Origin: a virus | IMG/VR virus record: IMGVR_UViG_3300038678_000102 | Location: 1 to 44,245 of that record | DNA length: 44,245 nt | Direction: 5' to 3' (one strand) | In this document: piece by piece, positions 1,084-15,593 of the stretch | How the letters are laid out: every line of letters starts with the position of its first letter | Position numbering within the stretch: position 1 is the first letter of the stretch | The notes under the pieces: generated by a model | Told to the model about the DNA's origin: nothing | What the model saw: the letters and a program-made list of their open reading frames with translations, nothing else | The model's database searches: none | Program-made: the position numbers and the translations under genes

Positions 1084-1277
1084 GTTTTTGGAACGGGATG
1101 GCATATATGTCTAATGCGACTAAAAGGTGTGCTATGTACGAAGAAGAAAGACCACTATACGAAAACATGTGCGAATGCTCAACAAAAAGGGGGGACGCAT
1201 GTAAGAATTTTGGGTATATTTGGAGAGGCAAGATGTATTGTTATGCCCACTGTAAAACTAAAAATCGGGGCAAGTAG
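1080..1277 (+). CDS. Cys/His-rich small protein
   Basis: A 65-residue protein with an ATGA overlap to the upstream gene. A CxC, a later Cys and a terminal YCYAHC (residues about 31-58) resemble the C..G..C...yC..H zinc knuckle seen in many small phage proteins. It ends NRGK, encoded by the boundary motif at 1262-1277. Other longer open frames across this span are shadows or overextended. Confidence 0.7.
   Translation: MSFWNGMAYMSNATKRCAMYEEERPLYENMCECSTKRGDACKNFGYIWRGKMYCYAHCKTKNRGK
1262..1277 (+). repeat. gene-end motif AAATCGGGGCAAGTAG
   Basis: Encodes the C-terminal NRGK and the stop of the 1080 gene. Identical in form to copies at 3397, 6184, 7398, 11632 and 15579 apart from one G and the base before the stop. 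Confidence 0.75.
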
Positions 1278-1278
1278 A

Positions 1279-1488
1279 ATGAACCTTGGTAAGTGGGAAG
1301 TCTTATTCTGGATGCCCCCGTCTGCTTGGTGTCTTAATTGGGGGTACTATCCTTCTGCCCGCGATCCTGCGTTCTTCTTTGTAAATATCGGAGCAATAGA
1401 AATAAGACATTTCGGGGCATATAATAAGAAGAAAGTATGTAAGAGATGTGGGCAGGAGATGCCCGCGTCTAATGGAGGAGACAAATGA
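1279..1488 (+). CDS. hypothetical protein with C-terminal CxxC
   Basis: I start this gene at ATG 1279, one base after the upstream stop; the frame is open further upstream to 1114, but that part lies wholly within the 1080 gene. The 69-residue product is Trp/Phe-rich and ends with a CKRC pair and the repeat-derived SNGGDK. It overlaps the next ATG by four bases (ATGA). Confidence 0.65.
   Translation: MNLGKWEVLFWMPPSAWCLNWGYYPSARDPAFFFVNIGAIEIRHFGAYNKKKVCKRCGQEMPASNGGDK
1460..1487 (+). repeat. degenerate boundary cassette (TGCCCGCG + TCTAATGGAGGAGACA)
   Basis: TGCCCGCG is followed by a diverged dyad in which the right half has become GGAGGAG, so the same sequence is both boundary repeat and ribosome binding site for the 1485 gene. 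It shows how the element can merge with translation signals. Confidence 0.55.
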
Positions 1489-1850
1489 TTATTTTCAAAA
1501 AGTTTGGCAAAACAATCAAGATTCGTAATGACCATTGGAAAAGGTTAAGGGCAAGGTATAACCATGAAAATGCAGTTTTGGATGCCAAAGAGGGTTATTA
1601 TAAGATAAGAAGACATTGCCCCTTCTGTAATCTATACCTAGGCTGTACTGGTTGTCCATTTGATGAGTTTGAAGAAGAATATGGCTGTCTTTCATTCTTT
1701 GAGCAACTCTTTCGGGGTGGGACAAGATTTGACCACGGATTGATTGACATGGTTACTTGGGATGAATGGGAGGATAAAAAAGCTCGGAAGCAATTAAGCA
1801 GACTTCAAAAAATGATGGACAAAATCGAGGCATCACAAAAGGAGGTATAA
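1485..1850 (+). CDS. Cys-rich hypothetical protein
   Basis: A 121-residue protein with a basic N-terminal half, a CPFC...CTGC cluster (residues about 46-57), a further GC near 67, and a Lys-rich helical C-terminus. Four to five cysteines in a short span suggest metal binding. No family is recognised. It is followed by AAAGGAGGT for the mini-ORF at 1852. Confidence 0.75.
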   Translation: MIIFKKFGKTIKIRNDHWKRLRARYNHENAVLDAKEGYYKIRRHCPFCNLYLGCTGCPFDEFEEEYGCLSFFEQLFRGGTRFDHGLIDMVTWDEWEDKKARKQLSRLQKMMDKIEASQKEV

Positions 1851-1851
1851 C

Positions 1852-1896
1852 ATGTTTTCTATATCTGCCCGCGAAAATGGAGGCAAGAATGATTGA
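1852..1896 (+). CDS. 14-aa mini-ORF with a very strong ribosome binding site
   Basis: ATG at 1852 lies behind AAAGGAGGTATAAC, one of the best ribosome binding sites in this arm, yet the frame closes after 14 codons. Its body contains TGCCCGCGAAAATGGAGG, the boundary arm followed by the ribosome binding site of the next gene, and its end overlaps that gene's ATG. It could be a leader peptide coupling translation into 1889. Confidence 0.4.
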   Translation: MFSISARENGGKND

Positions 1897-2083
1897 ATTA
1901 AGGAACAAAATTGAAATTGGTAGTTTAGTAAATGTCCATTTTGTCCATTCAGACTCTATATTCAGAGCTAGGGTTGCCTACACCCCCCAAGCCACGGGAG
2001 ATAGTTGGCATTTAATTAAGGGTACTGATGAGGTTTTTTATGTACAGATATTTGAGAGAATGGATTTAATCAAGGAGGTATAA
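1889..2083 (+). CDS. hypothetical protein (64 aa)
   Basis: I chose ATG 1889, five bases after GGAGG, over the in-frame ATG at 1877, which would precede that site. The product is a beta-rich, soluble 64-residue protein without cysteines. Not recognised. It is followed directly by a single-TM gene whose ATG is one base after its stop. Confidence 0.65.
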   Translation: MIELRNKIEIGSLVNVHFVHSDSIFRARVAYTPQATGDSWHLIKGTDEVFYVQIFERMDLIKEV

Positions 2084-2182
2084 ATGTTTTATGAATCATG
2101 GGGTTTTTGGCTTATTATCGGTCTTGTAATAGGGGGGTGTTTTGGATTTATTGCCGCGAAATCTAACAGGTTAGACAAATGA
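2084..2182 (+). CDS. 32-aa single-TM peptide ending SNRLDK
   Basis: AAGGAGGTATAA precedes ATG 2084. The frame encodes a hydrophobic segment (residues about 6-25, with GLVIGGCFGF) followed by AAKSNRLDK, all of the tail coming from the TTGCCGCGA arm and the dyad at 2162. The stop overlaps the next ATG. It is probably a membrane microprotein of unknown role. Confidence 0.6.
   Translation: MFYESWGFWLIIGLVIGGCFGFIAAKSNRLDK
2162..2175. repeat. dyad repeat site 3 (TCTAACAGGTTAGA, perfect inner dyad)
   Basis: TCTAAC-AG-GTTAGA is fully self-complementary in its six-base arms. It is preceded by TTGCCGCGAAA and followed by CAAATG, so it is the best complete copy of the cassette. Confidence 0.85.
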
Positions 2183-2361
2183 AAAACCTAATAAATAAAT
2201 GTAAATATCAGTTCCGCCTAGAAGGAAAGTGGGGACAACAAACCCTTGCGGTGGATATTTATTACAAAAAGAAATGGATTGCTAAATTCAATTGGTGCAG
2301 AGGAGTTAATTGCGTAAAAGAGTTTGATGTATCATATAATAGAATTTACAAAAGGAGATAA
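2179..2361 (+). CDS. hypothetical protein (60 aa)
   Basis: The start is inside the boundary cassette (GACAAATGA). The product is a basic, aromatic 60-residue protein with three cysteines that are not in CxxC pairs. Not recognised. The stop is followed at once by the GTG start of the 2363 gene, whose AAAGGAG lies in this gene's last codons. Confidence 0.65.
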   Translation: MKNLINKCKYQFRLEGKWGQQTLAVDIYYKKKWIAKFNWCRGVNCVKEFDVSYNRIYKRR

Positions 2362-2362
2362 T

Positions 2363-2554
2363 GTGATAATTAACAGTAAGTCATCGCTAATTAAGCTCCT
2401 TGAAACATGTAGGGACTCGCATAAACTGTGGACTCGAAAAGCCAGGAGGAATAGACATCAATCATTGGGAAGTCAAGCTTGGAATATAAAGGTGATTAAG
2501 GAATATCAAGATGCGATAAATTTTATAAAAAATAATTTAAGGAGGCAAACATGA
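2363..2554 (+). CDS. hypothetical basic protein (63 aa, GTG start)
   Basis: I start at GTG 2363, after AAAGGAGATAAT; ATG 2361 is followed at once by a stop, and the upstream extension to 2324 overlaps the previous gene. The product is Arg/Lys-rich (KARRNRHQS) and helical, possibly nucleic-acid binding. Its stop overlaps the next ATG. Confidence 0.6.
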   Translation: MIINSKSSLIKLLETCRDSHKLWTRKARRNRHQSLGSQAWNIKVIKEYQDAINFIKNNLRRQT

Positions 2555-2682
2555 TAGGAAAATTAGCAATTATCTTATGGGTTTTATTTACCGTCGGGGG
2601 TATCGTGTATTACAAGCTCATTAAAAAGCGGTGGCAAAAAGGCAACCAATTCATCTATCGCGGTAGACAGAGGGAGAAATGA
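2551..2682 (+). CDS. 43-aa single-TM protein
   Basis: ATG 2551 overlaps the previous stop (ATGA) and follows AAGGAGGC. The N-terminal hydrophobic helix (residues 4-21) is followed by a strongly basic cytoplasmic-type tail (KKRWQKG...RGRQREK). The tail is partly encoded by the dyad at 2654, read in a different frame from usual. Role unknown. Confidence 0.65.
   Translation: MIGKLAIILWVLFTVGGIVYYKLIKKRWQKGNQFIYRGRQREK
2654..2667. repeat. dyad repeat site 4 (TCTATCGCGGTAGA)
   Basis: Exact TCTA-N6-TAGA copy in the 3' end of the 2551 gene, 12 bases before the 2679 start. Confidence 0.7.
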
Positions 2683-2993
2683 AGAAAGAGGAACTTTTAG
2701 AATGGTTTAAAAGACAGAAATGGTTCATTAAGGGCATTCTTAACGAATCACATCGCTCTGAATCGTGGGTAGAATCAGACGAACAAGCCTACATGGAAAT
2801 CGCGGCAATCATAAAGAACCAACCTACTATCACCAAGAGAGACATTGAGTGTTGGGCTGACGAGGCGAAGGAGCAGGTTACATCACATAGAGACTGGGCA
2901 TACATAGGAGATACCATGAAAGAGATGCTCGAAGATATAGATGTTACTATTCGCCCCGAAAAGTCTACTGTAGTAGATAAAGAGGAAAAATGA
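2679..2993 (+). CDS. hypothetical acidic protein (104 aa)
   Basis: A 104-residue, strongly helical, Trp- and Glu-rich protein. No motif is recognised. It ends STVVDKEEK, encoded by the dyad at 2964, and overlaps the next gene by an ATGA. The ribosome binding site is AGGGAG. It forms a pair with the similarly sized helical protein at 2990. Confidence 0.75.
   Translation: MKKEELLEWFKRQKWFIKGILNESHRSESWVESDEQAYMEIAAIIKNQPTITKRDIECWADEAKEQVTSHRDWAYIGDTMKEMLEDIDVTIRPEKSTVVDKEEK
2964..2977. repeat. dyad repeat site 5 (TCTACTGTAGTAGA)
   Basis: TCTACTGTAGTAGA is a near-perfect palindrome, preceded by CGCCCCGAAAAG and placed at the end of the 2679 gene. Confidence 0.8.
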
Positions 2994-3412
2994 GTGAGTT
3001 AAATAAAAAAGAGCTTCTAGATATTTTGGATTGTTTCAAGAATGTCTATTGTGAGGTTTGTAAGGATATGCCACCCATAAAATTCAATTTTACATCGAAG
3101 GAAGAATTAACAGAGGATGCTCAACGAGCCTACCAGCAAATAAAAAAGATGATACAGAAGCTACATAAGAAGAGGGGGTTAACGGGAATGGCAGGTGAAA
3201 TATTCAATGAAGCACACAAAAATCAGCTAGAAGTCACCGAGGAGTGGATAGAGGAGAAGGCGTGGAAGTTGAGGGATTTAATAGCCTACATTATTAAACC
3301 TTCTCAAGAAGTGAGCCAGGAAGAAGGTGAGAATAAACTCATCAACTTCATCCGTTCACTCGTGAGAGAATCATCTATCACGGTAGACCCCCACAGAAAT
3401 CGGGGCAAGTAA
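2990..3412 (+). CDS. hypothetical helical protein ending NRGK
   Basis: A 140-residue, Lys/Glu-rich, predominantly helical protein with a CEVC pair near the N-terminus (residues about 21-24). No family is recognised. Two repeat elements write its C-terminus: the dyad at 3374 (read SSITVD) and the gene-end motif at 3397-3412 (NRGK, stop). Confidence 0.75.
   Translation: MSELNKKELLDILDCFKNVYCEVCKDMPPIKFNFTSKEELTEDAQRAYQQIKKMIQKLHKKRGLTGMAGEIFNEAHKNQLEVTEEWIEEKAWKLRDLIAYIIKPSQEVSQEEGENKLINFIRSLVRESSITVDPHRNRGK
3374..3387. repeat. dyad repeat site 6 (TCTATCACGGTAGA)
   Basis: Exact copy inside the last codons of the 2990 gene, ten bases upstream of a gene-end motif. Confidence 0.7.
3397..3412 (+). 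repeat. gene-end motif AAATCGGGGCAAGTAA
   Basis: Supplies the NRGK C-terminus and TAA stop of the 2990 gene. Confidence 0.7.
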
Positions 3413-3425
3413 ATAACCCCACACT

Positions 3426-3596
3426 ATGAGAAAGGTTTTAGCGACGTTAAAGAATATTAAGTATTATCTTAATATTCTTATACATTATATTGTCAGTCAA
3501 ACACGAGGCACACTCATCGAAGGTTTTTATAGATGCCGTCGGTGTCTCTCCTTTTGCCTTGGTGGGTGTGTCTTTTTATTTGCCACGAAAATCTAA
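3426..3596 (+). CDS. possible small Cys-rich protein
   Basis: An open frame of 56 codons from ATG 3426 to a TAA inside the dyad at 3592. It has a hydrophobic, Tyr/Ile-rich first half and a CRRC..CxxxC cluster. There is no ribosome binding site before the ATG and the composition differs from its neighbours, so this 200-base span may instead be an untranslated stretch. Low confidence. Confidence 0.3.
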   Translation: MRKVLATLKNIKYYLNILIHYIVSQTRGTLIEGFYRCRRCLSFCLGGCVFLFATKI

Positions 3597-3605
3597 CACA
3601 TTAGA
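3592..3605. repeat. dyad repeat site 7 (TCTAACACATTAGA)
   Basis: Exact copy preceded by TTGCCACGAAAA and followed by GAGAGG, the ribosome binding region of the 3618 gene. Confidence 0.8.
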
Positions 3606-3617
3606 CGAGAGGTAAAG

Positions 3618-3815
3618 ATGAATAGGGAAAAAAGCATTATCTGTTTTTGGCAAAATGAGAAGAAGTATAAGGAAAATATCCCAGAATTGTGTAAGTCTTG
3701 TCATATTTTTCTTCCCACAGAGGGATGGTGTAAAGACTTAACCTATGAAGAAGGTGCTTTTTACTGCTCCAACCAAAGAGAGGACCAATGGATAATCAAG
3801 GGGAGGCTAGGATAG
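3618..3815 (+). CDS. Cys-containing hypothetical protein
   Basis: A 65-residue protein with four Cys residues (CKSC and two singles, residues about 25-50) plus one near the N-terminus, of the CxxC...C...C type seen in several neighbours. The ribosome binding site is GAGGTAAAG. Its last 11 bases overlap the 5' acceptor strand of the tRNA-like fold at 3805. Confidence 0.7.
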   Translation: MNREKSIICFWQNEKKYKENIPELCKSCHIFLPTEGWCKDLTYEEGAFYCSNQREDQWIIKGRLG

Positions 3816-3890
3816 TCTTGGCTAAGACGAACACTGTCCGAAGTACAAGGATAGCACAAGCTTGGGGTTCGATTCCTCATCGCCTAGCCT
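3805..3890 (+). tRNA. tRNA-like cloverleaf (anticodon uncertain, possibly GTA)
   Basis: A perfect 7-bp acceptor stem pairs 3805-3811 with 3883-3889. The D-arm-like stem is GTCTT/AAGAC (3815-3828), the anticodon-type stem CTGTCC/GGATAG (3834-3854), and the T arm has the classical TTCGATT loop (3863-3879). Oddities: the anticodon loop is nine bases (GAAGTACAA) and lacks the usual T33; three extra bases (TCG) sit between T stem and acceptor; the D loop is very short; CCA is not encoded. It could be a degenerate or atypical phage tRNA, or a tRNA mimic. Confidence 0.45.
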
Positions 3891-3924
3891 TCTTCTTGAA
3901 ATCGCGGGTAAATAAAGAAAGTTC

Positions 3925-3953
3925 TTTACAACATAGTAGGTAGGGAGTAAGAT
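3925..3953 (+). promoter_or_regulatory. candidate sigma70 promoter TTTACA-17-TAAGAT
   Basis: TTTACA (3925-3930) and TAAGAT (3948-3953) are separated by exactly 17 bases. The predicted start of transcription, near 3960, abuts the boundary arm and dyad at 3961-3984, an operator-like arrangement for the downstream SSB-nuclease gene group. Confidence 0.45.
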
Positions 3954-3970
3954 TAGTACATGCCCGCGAA

Positions 3971-3984
3971 TCTAGCGGGTTAGA
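3971..3984. repeat. dyad repeat site 8 (TCTAGCGGGTTAGA), operator-like position
   Basis: TCTAGC-GG-GTTAGA sits just downstream of the candidate promoter and is preceded by TGCCCGCGAA. A protein bound here would block initiation or early elongation. Confidence 0.75.
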
Positions 3985-3999
3985 CACAAGGAGGTTTAT

Positions 4000-4194
4000 A
4001 TGAAATACCGAAAGAAACCAATAGTGATTAATGCGCATCGCCTAACCAAACCAATGACAGTTAAAACATTAGAGGGTGTGATGACGGGGAACATTGGAGA
4101 TTGGTTAATAATTGGCGAAAAAGGAGAAGAATACTTTTGTGAAGATGATATTTTTAAAATAACTTATGAGGAGATAAAAGATGCCCAAGTATAG
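4000..4194 (+). CDS. phage protein of the MKYRKKPxVI family
   Basis: A 64-residue protein opening MKYRKKPIVI, then TLEGVMTGNIGDWLIIGEKGE and a C-terminal DIFKITYE. This layout (basic start, GDWII..G..GE.Y, DIF..TYE) is a very common small phage family of unknown function, usually a beta-rich fold. It has a strong AAGGAGG site and overlaps the SSB-like gene by 14 bases, so the two are probably co-translated. Confidence 0.75.
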   Translation: MKYRKKPIVINAHRLTKPMTVKTLEGVMTGNIGDWLIIGEKGEEYFCEDDIFKITYEEIKDAQV

Positions 4195-4804
4195 ATTTCA
4201 AGGTAAGATAAAAGCTATTACGTTTAAAGATGCCCGCGTTTCTGTCCTACTGGAAGATACCACATTTCTCTCTAACGACGGAGACTGGGAACAATGGACA
4301 GATTGGGAACTGATTAAGTCGGGCAAATACAAAAAGGGTGAAGTGTGGGTGAGTGCTTTTGAACAGAGTGCCCCCGAAGTGTTCCAAGCATGTAAAATGA
4401 TAGAAAAAGGCTCAGAAGTAGAGGTGGATATATTCAAGACAGAGAAAGGATTTTTAAATATCAATAATATCCGAATGGGAGTGCCCGATAAAGATATAAA
4501 TGAGGATTTGAAATCACCAGAACCCCCAGAAGAACCACAACCACCATGGCCTCCAGGAGCTACTACAGAACCCTCATCCGACCAACGACCACCCGATAGC
4601 CCCGAAGCTCAGGATGAGAGAACATCTACTGCGTTAGACAATGTCGCGGTAAGCAGAGAAGTCCTCATTATTAGACAAACATGTATTAAGGCTGCGAGTG
4701 CTGCCGTAAATGGCACACCCATAGATATGACAGTAAAGGGAAATAAAGAACTGGTCGTGGCGATAGCAAGAAGGCTTGAGAAATACGTACTGGAGGGAAA
4801 ATGA
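4181..4804 (+). CDS. putative ssDNA-binding (OB-fold-like) protein with Pro-rich linker
   Basis: A 207-residue protein. Residues 1-105 are beta-rich and resemble an OB-type core (GKIKAI..., VSVLLED, VEVDIFKTEKGFLNINNI). Residues about 112-145 form a Pro/Glu/Ser linker (PEPPEEPQPPWPP), and the last 60 residues form a helical domain. The next recognisable gene is a RecB/Cas4-like nuclease, consistent with a recombination or replication role. The linker is in the middle, unlike bacterial SSB, whose acidic tip is terminal. Family assignment is inferred. Confidence 0.4.
   Translation: MPKYRFQGKIKAITFKDARVSVLLEDTTFLSNDGDWEQWTDWELIKSGKYKKGEVWVSAFEQSAPEVFQACKMIEKGSEVEVDIFKTEKGFLNINNIRMGVPDKDINEDLKSPEPPEEPQPPWPPGATTEPSSDQRPPDSPEAQDERTSTALDNVAVSREVLIIRQTCIKAASAAVNGTPIDMTVKGNKELVVAIARRLEKYVLEGK
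4625..4638. repeat. dyad repeat site 9 (TCTACTGCGTTAGA), inside a gene
   Basis: An exact copy within the linker-to-C-domain boundary of the SSB-like gene, read S-T-A-L-D-N, followed by TGTCGCGGTAAG, which resembles the gene-end arm. Confidence 0.7.
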
Positions 4805-4962
4805 AAGAAGTGTGCGGAGATTGTAAGTTTTATTACAATAAATCTTTTCCTGCTTCATGTACTTATTTCGGGAGTAAAGTTCTTAGTAAAAAAGAATGGT
4901 GTCCTGCTTTTTATCCATTAAGGGGATACGGCATGCCTCAGGAAACGGCGGCAAGTAAGTGA
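4801..4962 (+). CDS. small Cys-rich protein (CxxC...C...C)
   Basis: ATG 4801 overlaps the upstream stop. The 53-residue product has CGDC at residues 5-8, then single Cys at about 20 and 34 with an aromatic-rich spacer, the same layout as the 10917 protein. It ends AASK, encoded by the gene-end motif variant GGCGGCAAGTAAG. It is probably a zinc-binding microprotein of unknown role. Confidence 0.7.
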   Translation: MKEVCGDCKFYYNKSFPASCTYFGSKVLSKKEWCPAFYPLRGYGMPQETAASK

Positions 4963-5585
4963 AATCTAAAGCCAAACAGAGATACCACAATGAGTCGGGC
5001 AAGATTATTGTCGGCACAACTACAGTTACGGGACTACTTGCAAAACCCCCACTCTACAACTGGTATTGGAATCTCGGTAGGGATGGGATAAACCACAGGA
5101 AACACTTAGACCACCTTGCCGAGATTGGTACGTTAATGCACTCTATGATATTCCACTACCTGAAAGACGAAACGATTGATACTGGGGACTACTCACAGAA
5201 TCAAATTGCGTCGGCAATGAATGGCTTTGAATTATTCCGAAAATGGGGGAAACAACACAAGCTCGAACCAATCCTCTTAGAAGAACAATTGGTATCTGAA
5301 AAATGGGAGTACGGTGGCACTCCTGATTTCTATGGATTGGTTGATGGGGAAAAGACACTCTTGGATTTTAAATCATCGGGAGTTTACAGTGACCAGTTTA
5401 TTCAGTTGGCGGCATATAAAAACCTATTAGAAGAGCAGGGACACAAGGTAGATAACTGTTGGGTGTTGGTATTACCGACGGATAAGGAGCTTAAAGAAGC
5501 CCAGAGAGAGGACGTGAGTGACCATTGGGAAACATTCACTCATTTACTTGAGGTTTATAGATTACTTAAAAAGATTGGAAGATGA
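4959..5585 (+). CDS. PD-(D/E)XK exonuclease (Cas4/RecB-like)
   Basis: A 208-residue nuclease. The motifs are in order: His61 in GTLMH, GGTPD with Asp123, LDFKS giving Asp136-x-Lys138, and QLAAY (149-153). These are the H, D, DxK and QxxxY signatures of RecB/Cas4-family nucleases. It starts at GTG overlapping the previous stop (GTGA). A role in DNA end processing for recombination, or in host DNA degradation, follows from the family. It lies beside the SSB-like gene. Confidence 0.85.
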   Translation: MKSKAKQRYHNESGKIIVGTTTVTGLLAKPPLYNWYWNLGRDGINHRKHLDHLAEIGTLMHSMIFHYLKDETIDTGDYSQNQIASAMNGFELFRKWGKQHKLEPILLEEQLVSEKWEYGGTPDFYGLVDGEKTLLDFKSSGVYSDQFIQLAAYKNLLEEQGHKVDNCWVLVLPTDKELKEAQREDVSDHWETFTHLLEVYRLLKKIGR

Positions 5586-5866
5586 ACGAAGAAGAGAAGG
5601 GACTAATTAAACAGTGGTGCGAAGCGTGTGAGAGAGAGTATGGTGAGAAATGCCACGAATGTCCTCTGTGGGGCTTGGTTTACGGCCTAGAGAAGCACTA
5701 CACCAAAGGCTGGACTATGGCACAGGCTTTTAGGTGTTACATGAGGATGGCGCCGTCACCAGCGCGGGCAAGACAAATAATGGAAGATACTATAGGGATG
5801 CCACTTGATGTGGCAAAAATGCTTTTAAGGGAGATTGAAGACTATGAGGAATGCCACGATGTCTAA
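5582..5866 (+). CDS. hypothetical Cys-rich helical protein
   Basis: A 94-residue protein with CEAC, CHEC and further Cys near both ends and a helical Met/Arg-rich centre. The ATGA overlap with the nuclease gene suggests it is co-translated with it. Its C-terminus ends at a TAA inside the dyad at 5862 (GATGTCTAA). No family is recognised; metal binding is likely. Confidence 0.7.
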   Translation: MNEEEKGLIKQWCEACEREYGEKCHECPLWGLVYGLEKHYTKGWTMAQAFRCYMRMAPSPARARQIMEDTIGMPLDVAKMLLREIEDYEECHDV

Positions 5867-5875
5867 CGGGATAGA
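5862..5875. repeat. dyad repeat site 10 (TCTAACGGGATAGA)
   Basis: Identical core to site 1. The TAA inside the dyad is the stop codon of the 5582 gene; GGAG for the next gene follows. Confidence 0.8.
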
Positions 5876-5887
5876 TAGGAGATTAAG

Positions 5888-6055
5888 ATGATTGAATTAG
5901 AAAGTAAGTGCCACAAAAAACCAGTAGAACAAATTTCTATATTGGAACGGGATTGTGAATGGGGAGAAAGAAGAACACGATATTACTTTTATATCTGTTC
6001 TGAATGTGGAAAACCCACCGAAGTAATGCAAGAACGGGAATTTTATGGACAATGA
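5888..6055 (+). CDS. small protein with CxxC pair
   Basis: ATG 5888 after TAGGAGATTAAG. The 55-residue product has single Cys at 8 and 23 and a CSEC pair at 37-40, then an acidic tail. It fits a split zinc knuckle. Its stop TGA overlaps the ATG of the TM gene at 6052. Confidence 0.65.
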   Translation: MIELESKCHKKPVEQISILERDCEWGERRTRYYFYICSECGKPTEVMQEREFYGQ

Positions 6056-6198
6056 ACAGTAAGGAATGGGTTGAAACCATGATGGGCGTAATTGCGCTAT
6101 TAACTTTGGTGTTCTTTTTTCCAAGTGGGGTGTTTTGGATAGCTTATTTTCTAATTAGGTTTCCTGAAAAATACGATAAGAATAAATCGGGCAAATAG
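6052..6198 (+). CDS. 48-aa TM protein ending KSGK
   Basis: I start at ATG 6052 (ATGA overlap) rather than at the upstream extension from 6004. A hydrophobic segment (residues about 10-34) is followed by a charged tail ending NKSGK, encoded by the gene-end motif. Small phage inner-membrane proteins of this type are common; the function is not evident. Confidence 0.65.
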   Translation: MNSKEWVETMMGVIALLTLVFFFPSGVFWIAYFLIRFPEKYDKNKSGK

Positions 6199-6216
6199 CA
6201 TATCTAACGCGATAGA
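6184..6216 (+). repeat. composite boundary: gene-end motif followed by dyad site 11
   Basis: AAATCGGGCAAATAG (6184-6198) ends one gene, and after four bases TCTAACGCGATAGA (6203-6216) leads into the next start (CAAATG). This is the cleanest example of the two motifs side by side in a fully intergenic setting. Confidence 0.85.
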
Positions 6217-6219
6217 CAA

Positions 6220-6384
6220 ATGACAAAATGGGAATTATTAGATTGGTTAGACACGAGTTTTATGGATTTTTGTGTGTTATTAAAATTAAAGAATCCGAAT
6301 TTTAAATGGGGGAAAGAGGACGAAATAGCATATGGGCAAATTGTAGATATCCTACTAAAAGAAAAATCGCGGGCAAATAAATGA
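6220..6384 (+). CDS. small hypothetical protein (54 aa)
   Basis: ATG is the end of dyad site 11 (GACAAATG). The 54-residue product is Leu/Lys/Trp-rich and helical; the C-terminal EKSRANK comes from AAATCGCGGGCAAATAA. There is no separate ribosome binding site, which suggests the boundary element or coupling supports initiation. Not recognised. Confidence 0.65.
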   Translation: MTKWELLDWLDTSFMDFCVLLKLKNPNFKWGKEDEIAYGQIVDILLKEKSRANK

Positions 6385-7076: not shown

Positions 7077-7086
7077 GAGGTAAAAT

Positions 7087-7248
7087 ATGAAAGATTTAAA
7101 AATTTATTATGAATCAGATTTACAGGTAGATTCTGCTATCGAGAAGGAGTTCAATAAAATTGCAAAAAGACTCGACCTTAAATTTCAAGGTTCGGGTTTT
7201 AATCTTAAAACAGGAATCAGGGATATTCATTATAAAAGAGAAAGTTAA
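7087..7248 (+). CDS. small hypothetical protein (53 aa)
   Basis: ATG 7087 after AGGAGGTAAAAT. A 53-residue mixed alpha/beta protein with a pattern (YYESD...IEKEFNKIAKRLDLKF.GSG.N..TG.RDI.Y) that looks like a compact phage family, though I cannot name it. The stop TAA shares its final A with the next ATG (TAATG). Confidence 0.7.
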   Translation: MKDLKIYYESDLQVDSAIEKEFNKIAKRLDLKFQGSGFNLKTGIRDIHYKRES

Positions 7249-7412
7249 TGTCTAACGAGATAGATAGGGAAGAGCTTATAAATCACATGACTACATGGTA
7301 TGACAATATGGATTGGGGCGTAGATGAGGAAACTGGCATCCCATTTATGGCTAATAAAGACCATGAGCGGGCATATAAACAAATTGTGGCACTTATAAAA
7401 TCGGGCAAATAG
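7248..7412 (+). CDS. small protein with both ends encoded by repeats (MSNEID...KSGK)
   Basis: A 54-residue acidic protein. The dyad at 7251 lies immediately after the ATG and gives MSNEIDR; the gene-end motif gives KSGK and the stop. So both termini are written by boundary elements around an aromatic, acidic core. Coupled by TAATG to the upstream gene. Not recognised. Confidence 0.7.
   Translation: MSNEIDREELINHMTTWYDNMDWGVDEETGIPFMANKDHERAYKQIVALIKSGK
7251..7264. repeat. dyad repeat site 12 (TCTAACGAGATAGA)
   Basis: Directly after the start codon of the 7248 gene, read S-N-E-I-D. Confidence 0.8.
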
Positions 7413-7431
7413 AAGTGTCTAACCAGATAGA
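7398..7431 (+). repeat. composite boundary: gene-end motif and dyad site 13
   Basis: AAATCGGGCAAATAG (7398-7412), then TCTAACCAGATAGA (7418-7431) starting just inside the next gene. It matches the 6184 composite but with the start codon placed before the dyad. Confidence 0.8.
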
Positions 7432-9046: not shown

Positions 9047-9079
9047 TGTCGGATAATATGCATTATGTCAACTAGGAGG
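9046..9079 (+). repeat. intergenic repeat copy A (GTGTCG-ATAA..TTATGTC..ACTAGGAGG)
   Basis: Shares GTGTCG-n-ATAA, a 5-7 base spacer, then ATTATGTC-n-ACTAGGAGG with copy B at 9538. The ATAAT/ATTAT arms are self-complementary. It carries the ribosome binding site of the 9085 gene. Confidence 0.65.
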
Positions 9080-9321: not shown

Positions 9322-9331
9322 GGAGGTTATT

Positions 9332-9535: not shown

Positions 9536-9537
9536 CA

Positions 9538-9572
9538 GTGTCGCATAAAGAAGGATTATGTCTACTAGGAGG
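9538..9572 (+). repeat. intergenic repeat copy B
   Basis: GTGTCG-C-ATAA, a spacer, then ATTATGTC-T-ACTAGGAGG. It matches copy A over most of 35 bases and again ends in the ribosome binding site of the downstream gene. Confidence 0.65.
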
Positions 9573-9580
9573 AGGTTTAG

Positions 9581-10920: not shown

Positions 10921-11099
10921 AAGTTTATTGTAAAGATTGTAAATGGAATTATCCCGCATGGATAAACCGATGTTTCAGTATTAGTGGCTTAGAGCCTGAA
11001 CCAGGTAGGGTCTATCCTCACGAAAAAATATATGAATCTGCCAACAATAATAATAATTGTCCGAGATATGACCGTAAATGGTGGAAGGTGTGGAGATGA
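10917..11099 (+). CDS. small Cys-rich protein (CKDCKWN...C...C)
   Basis: Start at ATG 10917 (ATGA overlap, GGGGGAA upstream) rather than 10905. The 60-residue product has CKDC at 5-8 and single Cys near 19 and 48, like the 4801 protein, with an Asn run (ANNNNN) and a basic end. Likely zinc binding. Confidence 0.7.
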   Translation: MKVYCKDCKWNYPAWINRCFSISGLEPEPGRVYPHEKIYESANNNNNCPRYDRKWWKVWR

Positions 11100-11335
11100 A
11101 GAAACAATTACTTACTATTATCCTTATACTTTTCTTACTGGTGAGTTGGGTGGTTATCATAGACCTTACCCGCGACCTTAAAGACACGTCGAATGCTCTA
11201 AAAATTGCCGAGGATTTTCTAGACGAAACAAGAGATGAAATCGACAGAATGTCTAACGTGATAGACAAGTATATTAAAGAAAAAAATCGGGGCAATGAAT
11301 GGAACGAAGAAGCCATCCCCGAACATAGGAGGTGA
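11096..11335 (+). CDS. membrane-anchored coiled-coil protein (79 aa)
   Basis: Start at ATG 11096 (overlap with the previous stop; GGTGTGGAG upstream). An N-terminal hydrophobic anchor (residues about 4-21) is followed by a heptad-like helix (DLKDTSNALKIAEDFLDETRDEI). In the tail are both repeat signatures: MSNVIDK from dyad site 15 and NRGNE from an AAATCGGGGCAA motif. Topology suggests a small inner-membrane protein with a long soluble helix; function unknown. Confidence 0.7.
   Translation: MKKQLLTIILILFLLVSWVVIIDLTRDLKDTSNALKIAEDFLDETRDEIDRMSNVIDKYIKEKNRGNEWNEEAIPEHRR
11252..11265. repeat. dyad repeat site 15 (TCTAACGTGATAGA)
   Basis: Inside the 11096 gene, read S-N-V-I-D, and followed 18 bases later by AAATCGGGGCAA (11284). 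A complete boundary pair is present although no gene ends there. Confidence 0.8.
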
Positions 11336-11337
11336 GG

Positions 11338-11646
11338 ATGAGAAAGATAAGAGAGATAACATCGGAAAAAGAGAATTTCCGCTTAGAGCCATTTGCTCCA
11401 AATGCTGTAATAGTTAAACGTGACCCGATTGAACCAGAGCCGATTGGAACGATTGTTTTGTTGCCATTCAAAATAACTGGATATGATAAAGATTGTGATG
11501 GCTCATTAATGGCACGTTTAGCAAACATCGAGTTGGATAGCCTTGAAGAGACTGGGTGGGAAGAATCAAACATTGGTCTTTATCCCGAGGATGGATTTGT
11601 TGTCACTGAAAAAGAATTAGAGGAACTTATAAAATCGGGCAAATGA
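11338..11646 (+). CDS. hypothetical protein (102 aa) ending KSGK
   Basis: Start at ATG 11338 behind AGGAGGTGAGG; the GTG at 11332 would overlap that site. The product is beta-rich with a GYDKDCDGSLMARLANIE stretch followed by a WEESNIGLYPEDG turn, which looks like a conserved small-protein family, not one I can name. The C-terminal IKSGK is repeat-encoded (11632-11646). Confidence 0.7.
   Translation: MRKIREITSEKENFRLEPFAPNAVIVKRDPIEPEPIGTIVLLPFKITGYDKDCDGSLMARLANIELDSLEETGWEESNIGLYPEDGFVVTEKELEELIKSGK
11632..11646 (+). repeat. gene-end motif AAATCGGGCAAATGA
   Basis: Gives KSGK and a TGA stop that overlaps the next ATG, so the motif works with TAG, TAA or TGA stops. Confidence 0.75.
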
Positions 11647-11948
11647 ATTGTACCTGTGGTAATAAGGTAGGTAAGCACACCATACTAAAGCTCTGTGATG
11701 ACTGTTATATTGCCCGCAAACGGGTGTACCTTAAGCAGTACCGTGCACTAAACACCACTAAAGCAATACCACAGTGGCAATCAAGGGGTGTACATAGTTT
11801 AGAATGGATGGTCTGCTGTAGAACTGACTGCGATAGGAAATTTCGCCGCCAACCGTGGCAACACGAGAAATATACCATGTGCCCCAGACACAAAGAGCTT
11901 CTTTCGGGCAGGTCGGGGGCAGTAAGGTGGTTGGAGAGGAGAGCTTAG
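11643..11948 (+). CDS. zinc-finger protein, basic (101 aa)
   Basis: N-terminal CTCG plus CDDC (residues 3-6 and 18-21) forms one knuckle; a second set (CCRTDC and CPRH, about 58-83) forms another. It is strongly basic throughout (RKRVYLKQYR, RKFRRQPW), so nucleic-acid binding is likely. ATGA overlap with the previous gene. Confidence 0.7.
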   Translation: MNCTCGNKVGKHTILKLCDDCYIARKRVYLKQYRALNTTKAIPQWQSRGVHSLEWMVCCRTDCDRKFRRQPWQHEKYTMCPRHKELLSGRSGAVRWLERRA

Positions 11949-12137
11949 ATGCCCCAGTATATGATAAGGTGCAAGAATTGTGGTTTCGGGCAAGACCTAA
12001 TCTTAACTTCTTACGCAGACTATGATAGGATAGTATCCATGATGCCGTGTGAAGAATGTGGGAAGTGTGATTGGTCTAAATTGCCGACGACGGCGAATTT
12101 AAAAAGAGATGGGACATACTCATGGAGGGAGAAATGA
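11949..12137 (+). CDS. zinc-ribbon protein (FmdB-like layout)
   Basis: A 62-residue protein, MPQYMIRCKNCG...MPCEECGKCDW: the short N-terminal strand followed by CxxC, about 26 residues, then CxxC resembles FmdB-type regulators. It abuts the previous stop. The last codons carry GGAGGGAG for the next gene. Confidence 0.7.
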   Translation: MPQYMIRCKNCGFGQDLILTSYADYDRIVSMMPCEECGKCDWSKLPTTANLKRDGTYSWREK

Positions 12138-12313
12138 AAACCAAGGAACTAATCGAACAACTATGGTTATTCTATGATAGGGCAGTTTACTATGCCTTCA
12201 TGACCAACTTAAATTATTACAGGGGAATGATGGATGAAGTTGTGAAGAGATTAGAGCAGTACGAAAAAATGAAAGAGGGCATGGAATCGGGGCAAAACAA
12301 GAATGAAGTTTGA
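12134..12313 (+). CDS. small helical hypothetical protein (59 aa)
   Basis: ATG 12134 overlaps the upstream stop and follows GGAGGGAGAA; the codon at 12122 is inside the previous gene. A helical, Tyr/Met-rich 59-residue protein. Its ESGQNKNEV end arises from an ATCGGGGCAA motif read in a different frame. Not recognised. Confidence 0.65.
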   Translation: MKTKELIEQLWLFYDRAVYYAFMTNLNYYRGMMDEVVKRLEQYEKMKEGMESGQNKNEV

Positions 12314-12536
12314 TGACGTATTAGAGGGTGGTATGTTAAACTTCCCTCACAAGGCGATTATGGTCGCATGTTGTACTTGCGGTTTGTCTCATATGTTTGT
12401 TTTTATGGCGGATGATGGTGAGCCATGTCTTAAAGTTTACCGCGATGATGAGGCGACCGAGGCGGTGCGGGCAGACATGAGTTCGCGGCAAATAGAGGCA
12501 GTAATAAAAGAATTCCAAAAACTAAAGGAGAAATAA
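12303..12536 (+). CDS. hypothetical protein with CCTC (77 aa)
   Basis: A 77-residue protein with a CCTCG segment at 23-27 followed by a strand-rich part and a C-terminal helix (SSRQIEAVIKEFQKLKEK). The TCGCGGCAAATAG motif occurs internally. No known family; a soluble globular fold is likely. The final A of its stop is the first base of the next ATG (TAATG). Confidence 0.7.
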   Translation: MKFDDVLEGGMLNFPHKAIMVACCTCGLSHMFVFMADDGEPCLKVYRDDEATEAVRADMSSRQIEAVIKEFQKLKEK

Positions 12537-12904
12537 TGGATACTTCAGAACTTTATATTAAGATGTCAGATTGCCCCGAGATTCAGGGGGAGTGGACAAT
12601 TCCACCATACGACCATGATTTTTGCTGGAATGACGAATACAAGTTTTTAACTTATGGCAGAGATATTAAGGGGAAAGATGTGGATGAGTATATCTGGCTT
12701 CCCCGTCAAGACCAGATTCAGGAAATGATGCCCGAATGTAAGTGTCCATGTTGCCTGATAGTTCATCTTAATAAGTTTGTCGCAGATAATATTGATGGAT
12801 TTGCCGACAGGGGGATAGATTCCATGGAACAATACTGGCTTGCTTTTTATATGTCAGAAAAGCATCAGAAATTTTGGGGCAAGGATGGATGGGAAGATGT
12901 CTAA
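12536..12904 (+). CDS. phage protein with KMSDCPEIQ/LPRQDQIQ motifs (122 aa)
   Basis: A 122-residue acidic, Trp-rich protein. The sequence KMSDCPEIQGEW near the start and the segment WLPRQDQIQEM (about 54-64) followed by CKCPCC form a pattern I associate with a widespread phage family of unknown function. The stop TAA lies within dyad site 16. Confidence 0.7.
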   Translation: MDTSELYIKMSDCPEIQGEWTIPPYDHDFCWNDEYKFLTYGRDIKGKDVDEYIWLPRQDQIQEMMPECKCPCCLIVHLNKFVADNIDGFADRGIDSMEQYWLAFYMSEKHQKFWGKDGWEDV

Positions 12905-12913
12905 CATGATAGA
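12900..12913. repeat. dyad repeat site 16 (TCTAACATGATAGA), upstream of the HTH gene
   Basis: Full flanks TG...TA. It lies 13 bases upstream of the start of the XRE-type gene at 12926, a position compatible with autoregulation. Confidence 0.8.
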
Positions 12914-12925
12914 TAAGGAGGAAAC

Positions 12926-13324
12926 GTGGACACACCAGAAGTAACAAGAGTTAAGACCCTCTATAATTACATCTGTAATAGGGCACACGAAGAGGAGAGC
13001 TTAGAAATTACCGTTAGTCCCAATGAAACCTGTAAGCGGGTACGAATAATAGAAGAGCTAGAGAAATTAACTGGGAGGGAATTTAAAAATACAAAAGAAT
13101 TTCATCACCACGTGTCTGATTTTTTAATGAAAAACGGGCATCTCGGTAGTTCATTGAAAGAGTGTAGGAAAAGGAAGGGCATGAGCCAGCGTTTACTAGC
13201 TTTTAAATTGGGCGTAAGTCAACAGTATGTAGCGAAGATGGAAAGCGGGAGTAAACCACTGATTCCAAAGGCATTAGATTTTATTGAGAAAAATAATTAC
13301 ACAAAAAACAAAGAAAACCCATAG
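12926..13324 (+). CDS. XRE/Cro-type helix-turn-helix DNA-binding protein
   Basis: A 132-residue protein with a GTG start after AAGGAGGAAAC. The first ~70 residues are a charged helical domain I cannot name. Residues 77-121 are a Cro/C1-type HTH (LKECRKRKGMSQRLLAFKLGVSQQYVAKMESG), with the usual Ser-Gln at the second helix and recognition helix SQQYVAKME. It is the only such regulator in the window and a candidate binder of the dyad repeats. It could instead be an antitoxin-like or Cro-like protein. Confidence 0.8.
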   Translation: MDTPEVTRVKTLYNYICNRAHEEESLEITVSPNETCKRVRIIEELEKLTGREFKNTKEFHHHVSDFLMKNGHLGSSLKECRKRKGMSQRLLAFKLGVSQQYVAKMESGSKPLIPKALDFIEKNNYTKNKENP

Positions 13325-13338
13325 GATTGTATTCGTAA

Positions 13339-13410
13339 GTGAAAAAGGGTGTGAAAATGACACTGAAAACAAATAACTTAGAGTGGGTAAAAAGGGGGGT
13401 CAGTGAATGA
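13339..13410 (+). CDS. possible 23-aa leader ORF before the resolvase gene
   Basis: GTG 13339 opens a short frame closing at TGA 13408-13410, which overlaps the next ATG (ATGA). It has no clear ribosome binding site, but it contains the AAAAGGGGGG used by the downstream gene. It may be a coupling leader or simply the gap between the HTH and resolvase genes. Confidence 0.25.
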   Translation: MKKGVKMTLKTNNLEWVKRGVSE

Positions 13411-13748
13411 TAGATTCGCGTTCTAGTGGGAAGGCAGCGGAACGCAGGGTAGCCAAGGATATGAAAGGTCAAAGGATGGGTATAATGGGAATGGATGATG
13501 TGCGTGTACCGCCAAAAGATGGACTTGGGATTTCCTTTGAAGTAAAGACACGCAAGAAATTGCCCACAAGTATCAAAAGGTGGTTCAGGCAGGCTGAATT
13601 AAACATACACGGGAAGAACATCCCCGTATTGGTGATGAAAGAGAAGGAGACCAAGTGGAAGGATGCTTTTATTATGCTAAAGTATTCCCATTTCTTAAAA
13701 TATATGATTTACTTCTACAAGGAGGTAAAAGATGCCACGAAAATCTGA
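13407..13748 (+). CDS. Holliday-junction-resolvase-like PD-(D/E)XK nuclease
   Basis: A 113-residue protein. GKAAERRVAKDM carries the first-helix Glu12; the Asp-rich MDDVRVPPKDGLG loop (29-41) precedes FEVKTRK with Glu45-x-Lys47; RQAE (61-64) follows. This is the order and size of archaeal/phage Hjc-type and related small endonucleases. It probably resolves branched DNA before packaging. A strong ribosome binding site for the next gene lies in its last codons. Confidence 0.7.
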   Translation: MIDSRSSGKAAERRVAKDMKGQRMGIMGMDDVRVPPKDGLGISFEVKTRKKLPTSIKRWFRQAELNIHGKNIPVLVMKEKETKWKDAFIMLKYSHFLKYMIYFYKEVKDATKI

Positions 13749-13842
13749 CAAAGATAAACTTATAATTAAACATGAGAAAAAGATACAAAAACTCTTAAAG
13801 CAGTGGTTAAAAGAAATGGAGAGAGAATGGAGGCATAAATGA
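13732..13842 (+). CDS. 36-aa basic helical peptide
   Basis: ATG 13732 behind AAGGAGGTAAAAG, overlapping the resolvase gene by 17 bases. The peptide starts MPRKSDKDK, encoded by a diverged cassette (TGCCACGAAAATCTGACAAAG), then forms a Lys-rich amphipathic helix. Its stop overlaps the next ATG. The strong ribosome binding site supports translation. Confidence 0.6.
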   Translation: MPRKSDKDKLIIKHEKKIQKLLKQWLKEMEREWRHK

Positions 13843-14075
13843 ACTACATCTATAATCAACTCAACCTAAAGGAACACATTACTTGCCCGAATTGTGAAAA
13901 ACTCATGGTGAAGCGTATGTCTACTGAGATAGACAATGTGATTGATGGATTGCCCGCGAAAGAGTGGCACTGGTTTTGCTGTTGTGGCACAAAAGAAACT
14001 GGCGGTATGCTAAAGGGTATGCCCGAAACTGACTGGGTAAAAAGGGAATGGGAAAGGGTGAATAATATAAAATGA
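13839..14075 (+). CDS. zinc-ribbon protein (78 aa)
   Basis: CPNC at 16-19 and CCCG at 47-50 make a single ribbon; Trp-rich elsewhere. Dyad site 17 lies within the gene and is read MSTEIDN between the two knuckles, suggesting insertion into a tolerant loop. ATGA overlaps on both sides. Confidence 0.7.
   Translation: MNYIYNQLNLKEHITCPNCEKLMVKRMSTEIDNVIDGLPAKEWHWFCCCGTKETGGMLKGMPETDWVKREWERVNNIK
13920..13933. repeat. dyad repeat site 17 (TCTACTGAGATAGA), internal
   Basis: Inside the 13839 zinc-ribbon gene; a TTGCCCGCGAAAG arm follows 18 bases later (13951), so both motif types are internal here. Confidence 0.75.
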
Positions 14076-14224
14076 CAGAAAGAAAAATAACAGCAGAATT
14101 CGTAGAAAAATGGGCACAGAAAGTTAAAAAAGAATTGGAAGACATAGAACATATTTGTGACCATACAATAGCAGATTGTTTATTTTGGATGTTCAGGGAA
14201 TTGAAGATGTGGAGCAATAAATGA
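14072..14224 (+). CDS. small helical hypothetical protein (50 aa)
   Basis: ATG 14072 overlaps the previous stop; its TGA overlaps the next ATG. A 50-residue, Lys/Glu/Trp helical protein, no motif. The tight two-sided overlap argues that it is real. Confidence 0.65.
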   Translation: MTERKITAEFVEKWAQKVKKELEDIEHICDHTIADCLFWMFRELKMWSNK

Positions 14225-14580
14225 AAAAAACAACAGTCGGTAAATACACAGGCTATGCAGAGTTTACCCCGCGACGGGCGGGTGTCTTTGTTTTTAAGTT
14301 GGAAAAGTATCTAAAGATAGCAAGGGTATATAAGGTTAAGTCAGGAAAAGAGAAAGGCGAGGCAAAGATGCAGAGTCATCGGCATAACGCAGTAGAGAGG
14401 AGGATTCATAGGTCAAACGATTGGCTCTCTATTGCCCCCGACCTTATCCTACCGCTGATTAAGATTCTCCAAGAACAATACGTAGAGTTAGTCGGTGAGG
14501 AAGTGCCCGAGGTCGCGGCATTTGAAAAGGTGAGTGAGGATAAGGAGTTGACCGATGCGATTAAGAAGATTGGGTTGTAA
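14221..14580 (+). CDS. hypothetical protein (119 aa)
   Basis: A 119-residue basic-then-acidic protein; a beta-rich start, a HRHNAVERRIHRSNDW stretch, then helices. No family recognised. The internal TCGCGGCATTTGAAAAGG near its end again resembles the boundary arm. Confidence 0.7.
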   Translation: MKKTTVGKYTGYAEFTPRRAGVFVFKLEKYLKIARVYKVKSGKEKGEAKMQSHRHNAVERRIHRSNDWLSIAPDLILPLIKILQEQYVELVGEEVPEVAAFEKVSEDKELTDAIKKIGL

Positions 14581-14581
14581 A

Positions 14582-14737
14582 ATGAAAAACCTTTTAAAGG
14601 CGGTGCTTTTAGGTTTTATGTGGATAGCATTTATGTACTTGACGAAAGAAGTTTTATCCACATGGGCGTGGTATTTTTTCCTTGTTTCTGGACTTGTGTT
14701 TTTCAATATTCTTTTTCAATTCCCAGACGGGAGATAA
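14582..14737 (+). CDS. 51-aa protein with two hydrophobic helices
   Basis: ATG 14582 two bases after the previous stop. Two hydrophobic stretches (about 3-20 and 27-44) separated by a short charged turn; holin-like in size but located among early genes, so a general membrane role is as likely. The ribosome binding site is weak. Confidence 0.6.
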   Translation: MKNLLKAVLLGFMWIAFMYLTKEVLSTWAWYFFLVSGLVFFNILFQFPDGR

Positions 14738-14739
14738 AA

Positions 14740-15063
14740 ATGAGAAACATTTTCAAGTTCAAGGGAATAAAGAAGGAGTTGCGGGTGAATTTCTTATATC
14801 GCAAACAACTCATAGCCGAGAAAAACAAAACATGGGAATGCAGATTATATGGGGATATTGATGGGTGGTTGGGGGTTTATGATATACTTGATAACAGAGT
14901 AGTAGTATTTAAGGACATTCCAATTTGGAGACGGGGATTTGTGCTTATTCATGAGTTGGCTCATTATTTCATTGCTCATTTTTCTCACCATTGTTATGTA
15001 GTCAAGCGGAATATTTATTTTGATTGTTTGTGTCAAAATATAAAACGTAATTTTAGGAAGTAA
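14740..15063 (+). CDS. small HExxH zincin-like metallopeptidase
   Basis: I start at ATG 14740 after GGGAGATAAAA; the longer frame from 14620 overlaps the TM gene. The 107-residue product carries VLIHELAHYFIAH (HELAH at 71-75), the zinc-binding HExxH of zincins, with a downstream His-rich FSHH. The size and layout resemble ImmA/IrrE-like or SprT-like minimal peptidases. Substrate unknown; an ImmA-like role in cleaving a repressor is one possibility, inferred only. Confidence 0.65.
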   Translation: MRNIFKFKGIKKELRVNFLYRKQLIAEKNKTWECRLYGDIDGWLGVYDILDNRVVVFKDIPIWRRGFVLIHELAHYFIAHFSHHCYVVKRNIYFDCLCQNIKRNFRK

Positions 15064-15149
15064 AAATGGAGAGAACCACAAAACCTTTTCCTGGTGGGAA
15101 TCTTAGGAATTGGAACTTGGTCGCTCATATATTAGAAAAGGAGGTAAAG

Positions 15150-15365
15150 ATGAAACATGCTTGCTCTGGATTAAAAAAGTATAAGATGGCGAACCTTTCT
15201 AAACACCCGCATTATCTTGATTCTTCCCTGCAAGATGCGCCTGAAAGGGATGGGGTGTTATTGACGGTTCGTTATGTGAATCTGGAGGATCAGACAAAGT
15301 TGGGATGGGGGATGAGGTTTGATTATTGCCCCGCATGTGGGGAGTACTTAGGGAGTAAACAATAG
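15150..15365 (+). CDS. zinc-binding small protein, paralogue of the 43926 gene
   Basis: Start at ATG 15150 behind AAAGGAGGTAAAG, supported by alignment with the paralogue. Shared segments: PHYLDS-LQ, DGV-LTV-Y-N, LGWGMRF/FGWGMRF and CPACGE. An N-terminal Cys plus the C-terminal CPAC suggests one metal site. A copy of the same family sits at the far end of the window on the other strand. Confidence 0.75.
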   Translation: MKHACSGLKKYKMANLSKHPHYLDSSLQDAPERDGVLLTVRYVNLEDQTKLGWGMRFDYCPACGEYLGSKQ

Positions 15366-15374
15366 GGGGTAAAA

Positions 15375-15593
15375 ATGGACATTAAAAAATTAGAAGAAAG
15401 GATAGTTGACCTTGAGAGAAAGGTGTCGGGGTATAATGATCTTGTAATCTCAATATGGAGTGAAGAATATTGTAGGAGTTGCTATTTACCCGTAGCCGAA
15501 GTAATCAAGAAGCTAGCAGACAAAATGGGAGTCGAGTTGAGGGAATCTCACGAAAAGGTGAAAATGACTCCAGTGAAAAAATCGGGCAAGTAG
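15375..15593 (+). CDS. coiled-coil small protein ending KSGK (last plus-strand gene)
   Basis: A 72-residue protein with an N-terminal heptad helix (IKKLEERIVDLERKV), a CRSC pair and an amphipathic C-terminal helix; the final KSGK is from the gene-end motif. It ends exactly where the minus-strand terminase gene ends. Confidence 0.7.
   Translation: MDIKKLEERIVDLERKVSGYNDLVISIWSEEYCRSCYLPVAEVIKKLADKMGVELRESHEKVKMTPVKKSGK
15579..15593 (+). repeat. gene-end motif AAATCGGGCAAGTAG at the arm junction
   Basis: The last plus-strand copy; its TAG is directly adjacent to the terminase stop on the opposite strand. Confidence 0.7.

Follow-up and report, generated by a model that had tools for sequence, protein, structure and literature searches.

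A short repeat at early gene junctions of an uncultivated tailed virus is probably a leader element of the downstream gene

Introduction

Phage genomes often contain tens of very small early genes whose regulation is unknown. The uncultivated tailed-virus contig IMGVR_UViG_3300038678_000102 (44,245 bp, analyzed over its whole length and called the window, or W) carries an array of small early genes on the plus strand of positions 1-15,593, and several unrelated proteins of this array end with the same residues, KSGK or NRGK. The short DNA repeat which encodes these ends, named D1R here, had been described from the letters of the window alone (the sequence-only reading) as a cassette that closes genes. 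We were interested in which gene the repeat belongs to, and in what is conserved, the DNA or the peptide.

The minus strand of W encodes a terminase and an SU10-like portal. Two relatives were central to the comparison. The first, R (IMGVR_UViG_3300037246_001346, coordinates refer to the reverse-complemented contig), shares 92% amino acid identity with W in the terminase, 91% in the capsid and 80% in the portal. The second, V (IMGVR_UViG_3300009528_000007), shares 42% in the capsid and 67% in the exonuclease of gene 4959. Further relatives compared were T (IMGVR_UViG_3300033149_003293; capsid 62-63%) and U (capsid 44%). Genes were called with a home-made caller that rewards Shine-Dalgarno (SD) sequences, and several D1R starts and a few genes were entered by hand. 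D1R was defined as AAATCG-S(0-2)-GGCAA, usually followed by RTAR, and was searched in the exact form AAATCGGG(G)CAA. D1 denotes TGCC-S0-2-CGA on both strands, and D1L is the complement-side form, with the looser pattern TGCC-N0-2-CGA. D2 is the strict palindrome GTCTA-N6-TAGAC, and D3 is a third dyad.

Results

D1R is tied to the start of the downstream gene

The exact motif was found eight times on the plus strand of W, versus 0.06 expected from dinucleotide shuffles; R has nine copies. In its longer form, AATCG..GG(C/T)AA, it was counted 38 times across W, R and V. As the sequence-only reading had listed, the motif directly precedes the stop codon of six plus-strand genes, ending at 1277 (KNRGK), 3412 (RNRGK), 6198 (NKSGK), 7412 (IKSGK), 11646 (IKSGK) and 15593 (KKSGK), and the diverged gene-end copies at 6384 (AAATCGCGGGCAAATAAATGA, KSRANK) and 4962 (ACGGCGGCAAGTAAGTGA, TAASK) are real. 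Two other listed copies were not recovered: the one on the minus strand at 44181 reads AAATCGAGGGAAGTAG, a diverged copy that does not match the motif, and the gene ending at 540 closes in a different repeat, TCTAACGGGATAGATAAATAA. Two exact copies that had been missed, at 878 and 11284, have no stop directly after them.

The description as a gene-end cassette turned out to be the wrong way round, because most copies of the motif sit just upstream of the next start codon and are inherited together with the gene that begins there. Orthologues in R were found for 6 of 9 protein-coding downstream genes versus 0 of 10 upstream genes, which end in the motif or run into it (Fisher p = 0.003; p = 0.02 when one weak upstream hit with E = 0.006 was counted), and 5 of the 6 R leaders of downstream orthologues keep D1R. 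It lies directly 5′ of the start in both genomes at the W/R pairs 895/29348, 4959/31717, 6381/33077, 7415/34202 and 11643/39188. In the sixth pair, 331/28684, the motif is degenerate, and the leader of the R orthologue reads AAATTGGGGCAAATAAGGAGG. At R39188 the upstream gene ends before the motif, which is therefore non-coding and a pure leader there, whereas at W11643 the upstream gene reads into the motif and ends with IKSGK. At the terminase end, the DNA shared by W and R starts at the motif (W15578/R41786), and the preceding genes are non-homologous.

The 3′ ends of D1R peak within the final 10 nucleotides (nt) before starts (12 copies, all in one orientation; none for D1L). A called start lies at most 45 nt away for 24 of the 38 extended copies, and the start of the next gene is usually 0-25 nt from the motif. 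At the level of sequence, these comparisons show that D1R occupies a leader position and is co-inherited with the downstream gene.

Alternatively, the motif could be a transcription terminator or an RNA-processing end of the upstream gene. The copy at 15579 does contribute to a terminator-like stem, that of the convergent terminase operon. However, no terminator-like site coincides with the plus-strand D1R copies on the sense strand, no Rfam match was obtained, and the next gene usually follows at the short distance given above. A terminator or a known RNA family was rejected on these grounds, and this explanation is considered very unlikely.

The element is conserved as DNA

Extra spacer bases shift the reading frame, yet the gene ends still close, as had been proposed: spacers of 0, 1 and 2 nt give KSGK, NRGK and KSRANK, respectively. 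The proposal that the DNA element rather than the peptide is kept was also borne out, since tails of orthologues are present only with the motif and copies also lie outside genes. The orthologues W 2679-2993, R 30242-30502 and V 3860-4021 have a D2-coded tail STVVDKEEK, a KSGK tail and neither, respectively. The tails of W9581, R26874 and V2467 are EEGK, EEGKSEQNKGMK and EEEK. W7087 is without a tail and R41610 has one; W1279 and R29697 have D1L/D2-like tails, and their V counterpart stops at ELP. Every KSGK or NRGK tail in W and R is coded by the motif itself or by a form differing from it in one base, and tails in unrelated codons are few and confined to late V or T open reading frames (ORFs). 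In 7 of the 20 copies that bear RTAR, the stop within it is no gene's stop.

Finding the same residues in homologues through unrelated codons had been set beforehand as the outcome that would speak for the peptide. It did not come out, because all W and R tails use motif DNA, at most one base changed, and orthologues without the motif are without the tail. The sequences thus point to an element conserved as DNA, independent of the reading frame. Selection of KSGK/NRGK as a C-terminal protein signal could appeal to the lysine-rich tail that is common to several proteins, but the three frames give different peptides, tails are absent where the motif is absent, and copies occur outside genes. The orthologue and frame comparisons reject this explanation, which is extremely unlikely.

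Companion elements D1L, D2 and D3

For the complement of the motif, TTGCCCGCGA, 3 exact sites and 12 with one mismatch were counted versus 1.14 expected. An excess of TGCC-N-CGA and of its complement is seen only at N = 0, 1 and 2 (25 sites for each in the early region of W versus about 1.8 and 1.5 expected). The sequence-only reading held that this complement precedes many dyads and that both belong to one boundary system. D1L was found within 6 nt upstream of D2 at only 5 of 17 sites in the W early region (3 of 18 in the R early region), a minority but far above the random level of about 1% (1.2% per position). D1L/D2 composites do exist, in keeping with one system, but gene boundaries are enriched for D2 and D1R and not for D1L by itself. 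Gene 13732-13842 opens with codons that resemble D1L followed by D2 (ATGCCACGAAAATCTGACAAA, MPRKSDK), which looks like an element turned into coding sequence. In T (L029-L031, whole record), CTACC-N1-4-CGA and TCG-N-GGTAG words are in excess on either strand, chiefly within genes, and look like a diverged D1.

D2 was counted 22 times in the window versus 0.80 expected. TCTA-N-TAGA is enriched only at N = 6, with 17 sites in the early region of W and 18 in that of R versus 0-1 for other spacings. The consensus over 41 copies is GTCTANCNNGNTAGAC. The inner pair, positions 5-10, was paired in 14 copies versus 17.2 expected, without covariation, which favours a DNA site of two-fold symmetry bound by a protein over an RNA stem; an RNA hairpin was rejected for this reason. 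All six W sites that could be aligned to R are still sites there; only one is identical, and the changes fall at N positions. The D2 copies show selection for the palindrome itself, with no covariation of the kind expected in RNA. D2 also resembles the attC sites of integrons (RYYYAAC/GTTRRRY), but its palindrome of 14-16 bp is far shorter than attC, and this likeness was set aside. An unrelated phage contig (L023, IMGVR_UViG_3300007540_000588) has its own dispersed palindrome, TAGGTCCGACATCGGACTTA, near 1530, 2660, 3664, 3992, 4408, 4740 and 5494, several of these near gene junctions.

D3 has the form TGTCG[CG]ATAA..TTATGTCAACT, common to W, R and V, and precedes SDs or starts at two sites in W, five in R (36445-37750) and three in V (4106-4901).

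SD sequences and the preferred explanation

At coupled junctions, all 10 starts with D1R were without an SD, versus 18 of 55 other starts (p = 7e-5), with the reservation that the start calls favour SD, a bias on this comparison, and that several D1R starts were added by hand. The best explanation appears to be that D1R is a 5′ leader element of the downstream gene, within a regulon made up of operators and of leader elements next to starts; judged from the sequences, we consider this probable. D1R adjoins starts without an SD, or precedes an SD, where small early genes are densely packed and translationally coupled. Because these genes overlap or abut, any ORF lying upstream runs on into the leader and ends at a stop within or beside it, and unrelated proteins thereby gain KSGK, NRGK or KSRANK. 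D1R, D1L, D2 and D3 belong to a family of repeated leader elements shared by the three related viruses W, R and V. They may be recognition sites for one or a few putative factors, encoded by the virus or the host, which would co-regulate many small early genes, with D2 as a DNA operator and D1R acting at the translation-initiation region. Regulation by such factors is what we infer from this arrangement.

Besides the bias of the start calls, several points weigh against this explanation. Five R copies and W331 stand before an SD, which suggests a leader element and not simply a substitute for SD. The copy at 15579 has no downstream gene and is part of the stem at the terminase operon. About half of the D1 words, and nearly all of D1L, are intragenic on both strands; a role in translation only would leave them unexplained, and they are only partly explained here. 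No candidate binding protein was found, and the HTH_3 protein at 12926-13324 is without an R orthologue.

A stronger role in translation can be imagined, in which D1R would bring about initiation or reinitiation without an SD and form a transferable stop-start cassette: ribosomes ending any upstream ORF would restart on the next gene under a dedicated viral or host factor. We regard this as decidedly unlikely. If true, captured genes would be expressed at once and their C-termini would be rewritten by the leader on which they landed.

On the other hand, D1 and D2 could all be DNA-binding sites of a viral silencer or repressor, similar to stoperators, with the position next to starts merely tolerated. 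The strict palindrome of D2 without covariation fits this explanation, as does the enrichment of D1 on both strands and inside genes. At starts, however, D1 has a single orientation and is mutually exclusive with SD at coupled junctions. Moreover, the turnover of D1 is not much slower than that of control words (kept as sites in 12 of 25 early and 5 of 14 late cases versus 28% and 19% identical controls). This explanation is possible but doubtful.

The repeats could also be boundary cassettes that move or promote recombination, a role proposed for T4 PeSLs. They would then offer homologous joints for swapping small genes, the leader position being a by-product. Gene order is almost completely reshuffled (4 of about 35 testable W junctions kept), 21 of 54 W junctions bear an element, and non-homologous upstream genes join precisely at the motif beside the terminase. 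The early region also codes for a RecB-like exonuclease (phrog_298, 4959-5585) and a RusA-like Holliday junction resolvase (phrog_244, 13407-13748). However, broken junctions showed no excess of elements over kept ones (Fisher p = 0.63 and 0.62), in a test of near-zero power because only 4 of about 35 neighbourhoods were kept. The copies share just 10-16 bp, which is short for homologous recombination, and exchange joints would leave the intragenic copies unexplained. Such a role is unlikely.

Positions of the elements and other observations

The copies of each element in the window are collected in Table 1.

Table 1. Repeated elements in the 44,245-bp window and their gene context (tails are C-terminal residues)
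Feature	Position	Strand	Context
D1R leader copy AAATCGCGGCAAGTAAGGAG	306..321	+	non-coding, before SD and ATG 331; D1L 299-305 in front gives a local inverted repeat
D1R leader copy	878..889	+	5 nt before ATG 895; lies within the end of upstream gene 744-902 (tail NRGNKNE)
D1R leader copy of gene 1279-1488	1262..1277	+	ends 1080-1277 (KNRGK)
D1R copy upstream of gene 3426	3397..3412	+	ends 2990-3412 (RNRGK); motif before homologous start in R
Diverged D1R leader, exonuclease gene 4959 (GTG start)	4943..4958	+	ends 4801-4962
D1R copy then D2 (6203-6216), leader of 6220	6184..6198	+	ends 6004-6198 (KSGK)
D1R leader of 6381, spacer 2 nt	6364..6384	+	ends 6220-6384, third frame (KSRANK)
D1R copy then D2 (7418-7431), leader of 7415	7398..7412	+	ends 7248-7412 (KSGK)
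Exact D1R copy in gene 11096-11335	11284..11295	+	just after intragenic D2 (11252-11265)
D1R copy abutting ATG 11643	11632..11646	+	ends 11338-11646 (KSGK); non-coding at R orthologous start
D1R copy GAATCGGGGCAA	12284..12295	+	7 nt before ATG 12303
D1R copy between convergent operons	15579..15593	+	ends 15375-15593; on minus strand, part of a terminator-like stem with T tract after terminase
D1L + D2 composite	508..533	+	end of 331-540, before SD of 553
D2 directly before ATG 1080	1063..1076	+	end of 895-1083 (SNGVDK)
D1L + D2 composite	2152..2175	+	before ATG 2179, without SD
D2	2654..2667	+	before SD and ATG 2679; identical in R
D2	2964..2977	+	before SD and ATG 2990; codes tail STVVDKEEK of 2679-2993
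D1L + D2 composite	3581..3605	+	before SD and ATG 3618
D1L + D2 composite	3961..3984	+	before SD and ATG 4000
D1L + D2 composite	5852..5875	+	TAA inside is the stop of 5582-5866; remains a site in R
D2	6203..6216	+	before ATG 6220
D2 read as gene start	7251..7264	+	ATG 7248, MSNEID
D2 just inside gene 7415	7418..7431	+	GTG TCTAAC...
D2	12900..12913	+	end of 12536-12904, before SD and GTG 12926
D3 dyad TGTCGGATAA..TTATGTCAACT	9047..9077	+	before AGGAGG and ATG 9085
D3 dyad TGTCGCATAA..TTATGTCTACT	9539..9570	+	before AGGAGG and ATG 9581
D2 in late-strand leader	44152..44165	-	with D1L-like TGCCCGCG and diverged D1R AAATCGAGGGAAGTAG, before ATG near 44137

Scans of the sequence collection for the composite and leader patterns returned R and two contigs taken as chance (the unrelated L023, and L046 with few D1/D2 sites), and a provirus and host search of the genome contig collection gave no match. 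The AlphaFold model of the most conserved early protein (14221-14580) had a mean pLDDT of 45 and was unusable. Among the relatives, contig L050 contains long tandem 12-bp and 15-bp arrays at 15993-16340 and 14633-14817, and U (L040) has short-period coding repeats at 261-423, 2720-2806 and 7733-7877; in both, only tandem peptide-coding repeats were found.

Discussion

In T4 RegA-type translational repression, a trans-acting factor acts at the initiation regions of many early genes, as may be the case here. The nearest precedent for the elements described here seems to be the SAS/ESAS system of cluster K mycobacteriophages, in which a short repeat at the SD position is combined with a non-covarying inverted repeat, and for which roles in translation and DNA binding were proposed (PMC3203893). 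Both systems have two repeat types, a short asymmetric one that takes the place of the SD a few nt before starts and an inverted repeat, which in cluster K lies upstream of about half of them (PMC3203893). In cluster K they are likewise confined to the non-structural half, the stop of the upstream gene may fall in the repeat, and the consensus varies by subcluster (PMC3203893). The inverted repeats there, thought to be DNA-binding sites, are without covariation, as is D2 (PMC3203893). A repeat a few nt from the starts of non-structural genes was thus found here, and D2 provides the associated inverted repeat without RNA-type covariation. However, SAS includes AGGAG and is found mostly in long intergenic gaps, whereas D1R is without an SD core and lies in overlapping junctions (PMC3203893). 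The cluster K sequence GGGATAGGAGCCC was not found at the start codons; the leader copies of W, R and V read AAATCG-S-GGCAA-RTAR, without AGGAG. The sequences are unrelated, many D1 sites also fall within genes on either strand, and the tight 16-bp palindrome of D2 differs from the two 17-bp repeats with a variable spacer in cluster K. The present elements therefore look similar in kind to SAS/ESAS but not members of it, since sequence and architecture differ.

The promoter-stem-loop cassettes (PeSLs) of T4-like phages and the motif of the archaeal virus HGTV-1, a TATA-plus-inverted-repeat sequence before most ORFs on one side of the genome (PMC3950731), are also repeated before many small ORFs in regions of gene shuffling (PMC4503421, PMC3950731), but the elements here are without promoter excess or a covarying stem. 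Sigma-70-like sites, the one promoter type covered, numbered 38 versus 43.3 expected and were not above shuffles, and no stem-loop with terminator function like that of PeSLs was found. The stoperators of cluster A mycobacteriophages share the many copies of a short site across the genome and a motif that differs among related phages (PMC6550527). They are, however, 13-bp asymmetric sites, mostly in one orientation, and are bound by a known repressor, whereas D2 is palindromic and D1 occurs in both orientations (PMC6550527); an asymmetric site with one main orientation was not found here.

In these viruses, sequence elements are seen to stay with the gene start while neighbours are swapped, incidentally coding the C-terminus of whichever gene is placed upstream. 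Shared C-terminal peptides in small phage proteins need therefore not be functional. D1R, D2 and D3 provide a defined set of sites with which a putative factor coordinating the small early genes may be sought.

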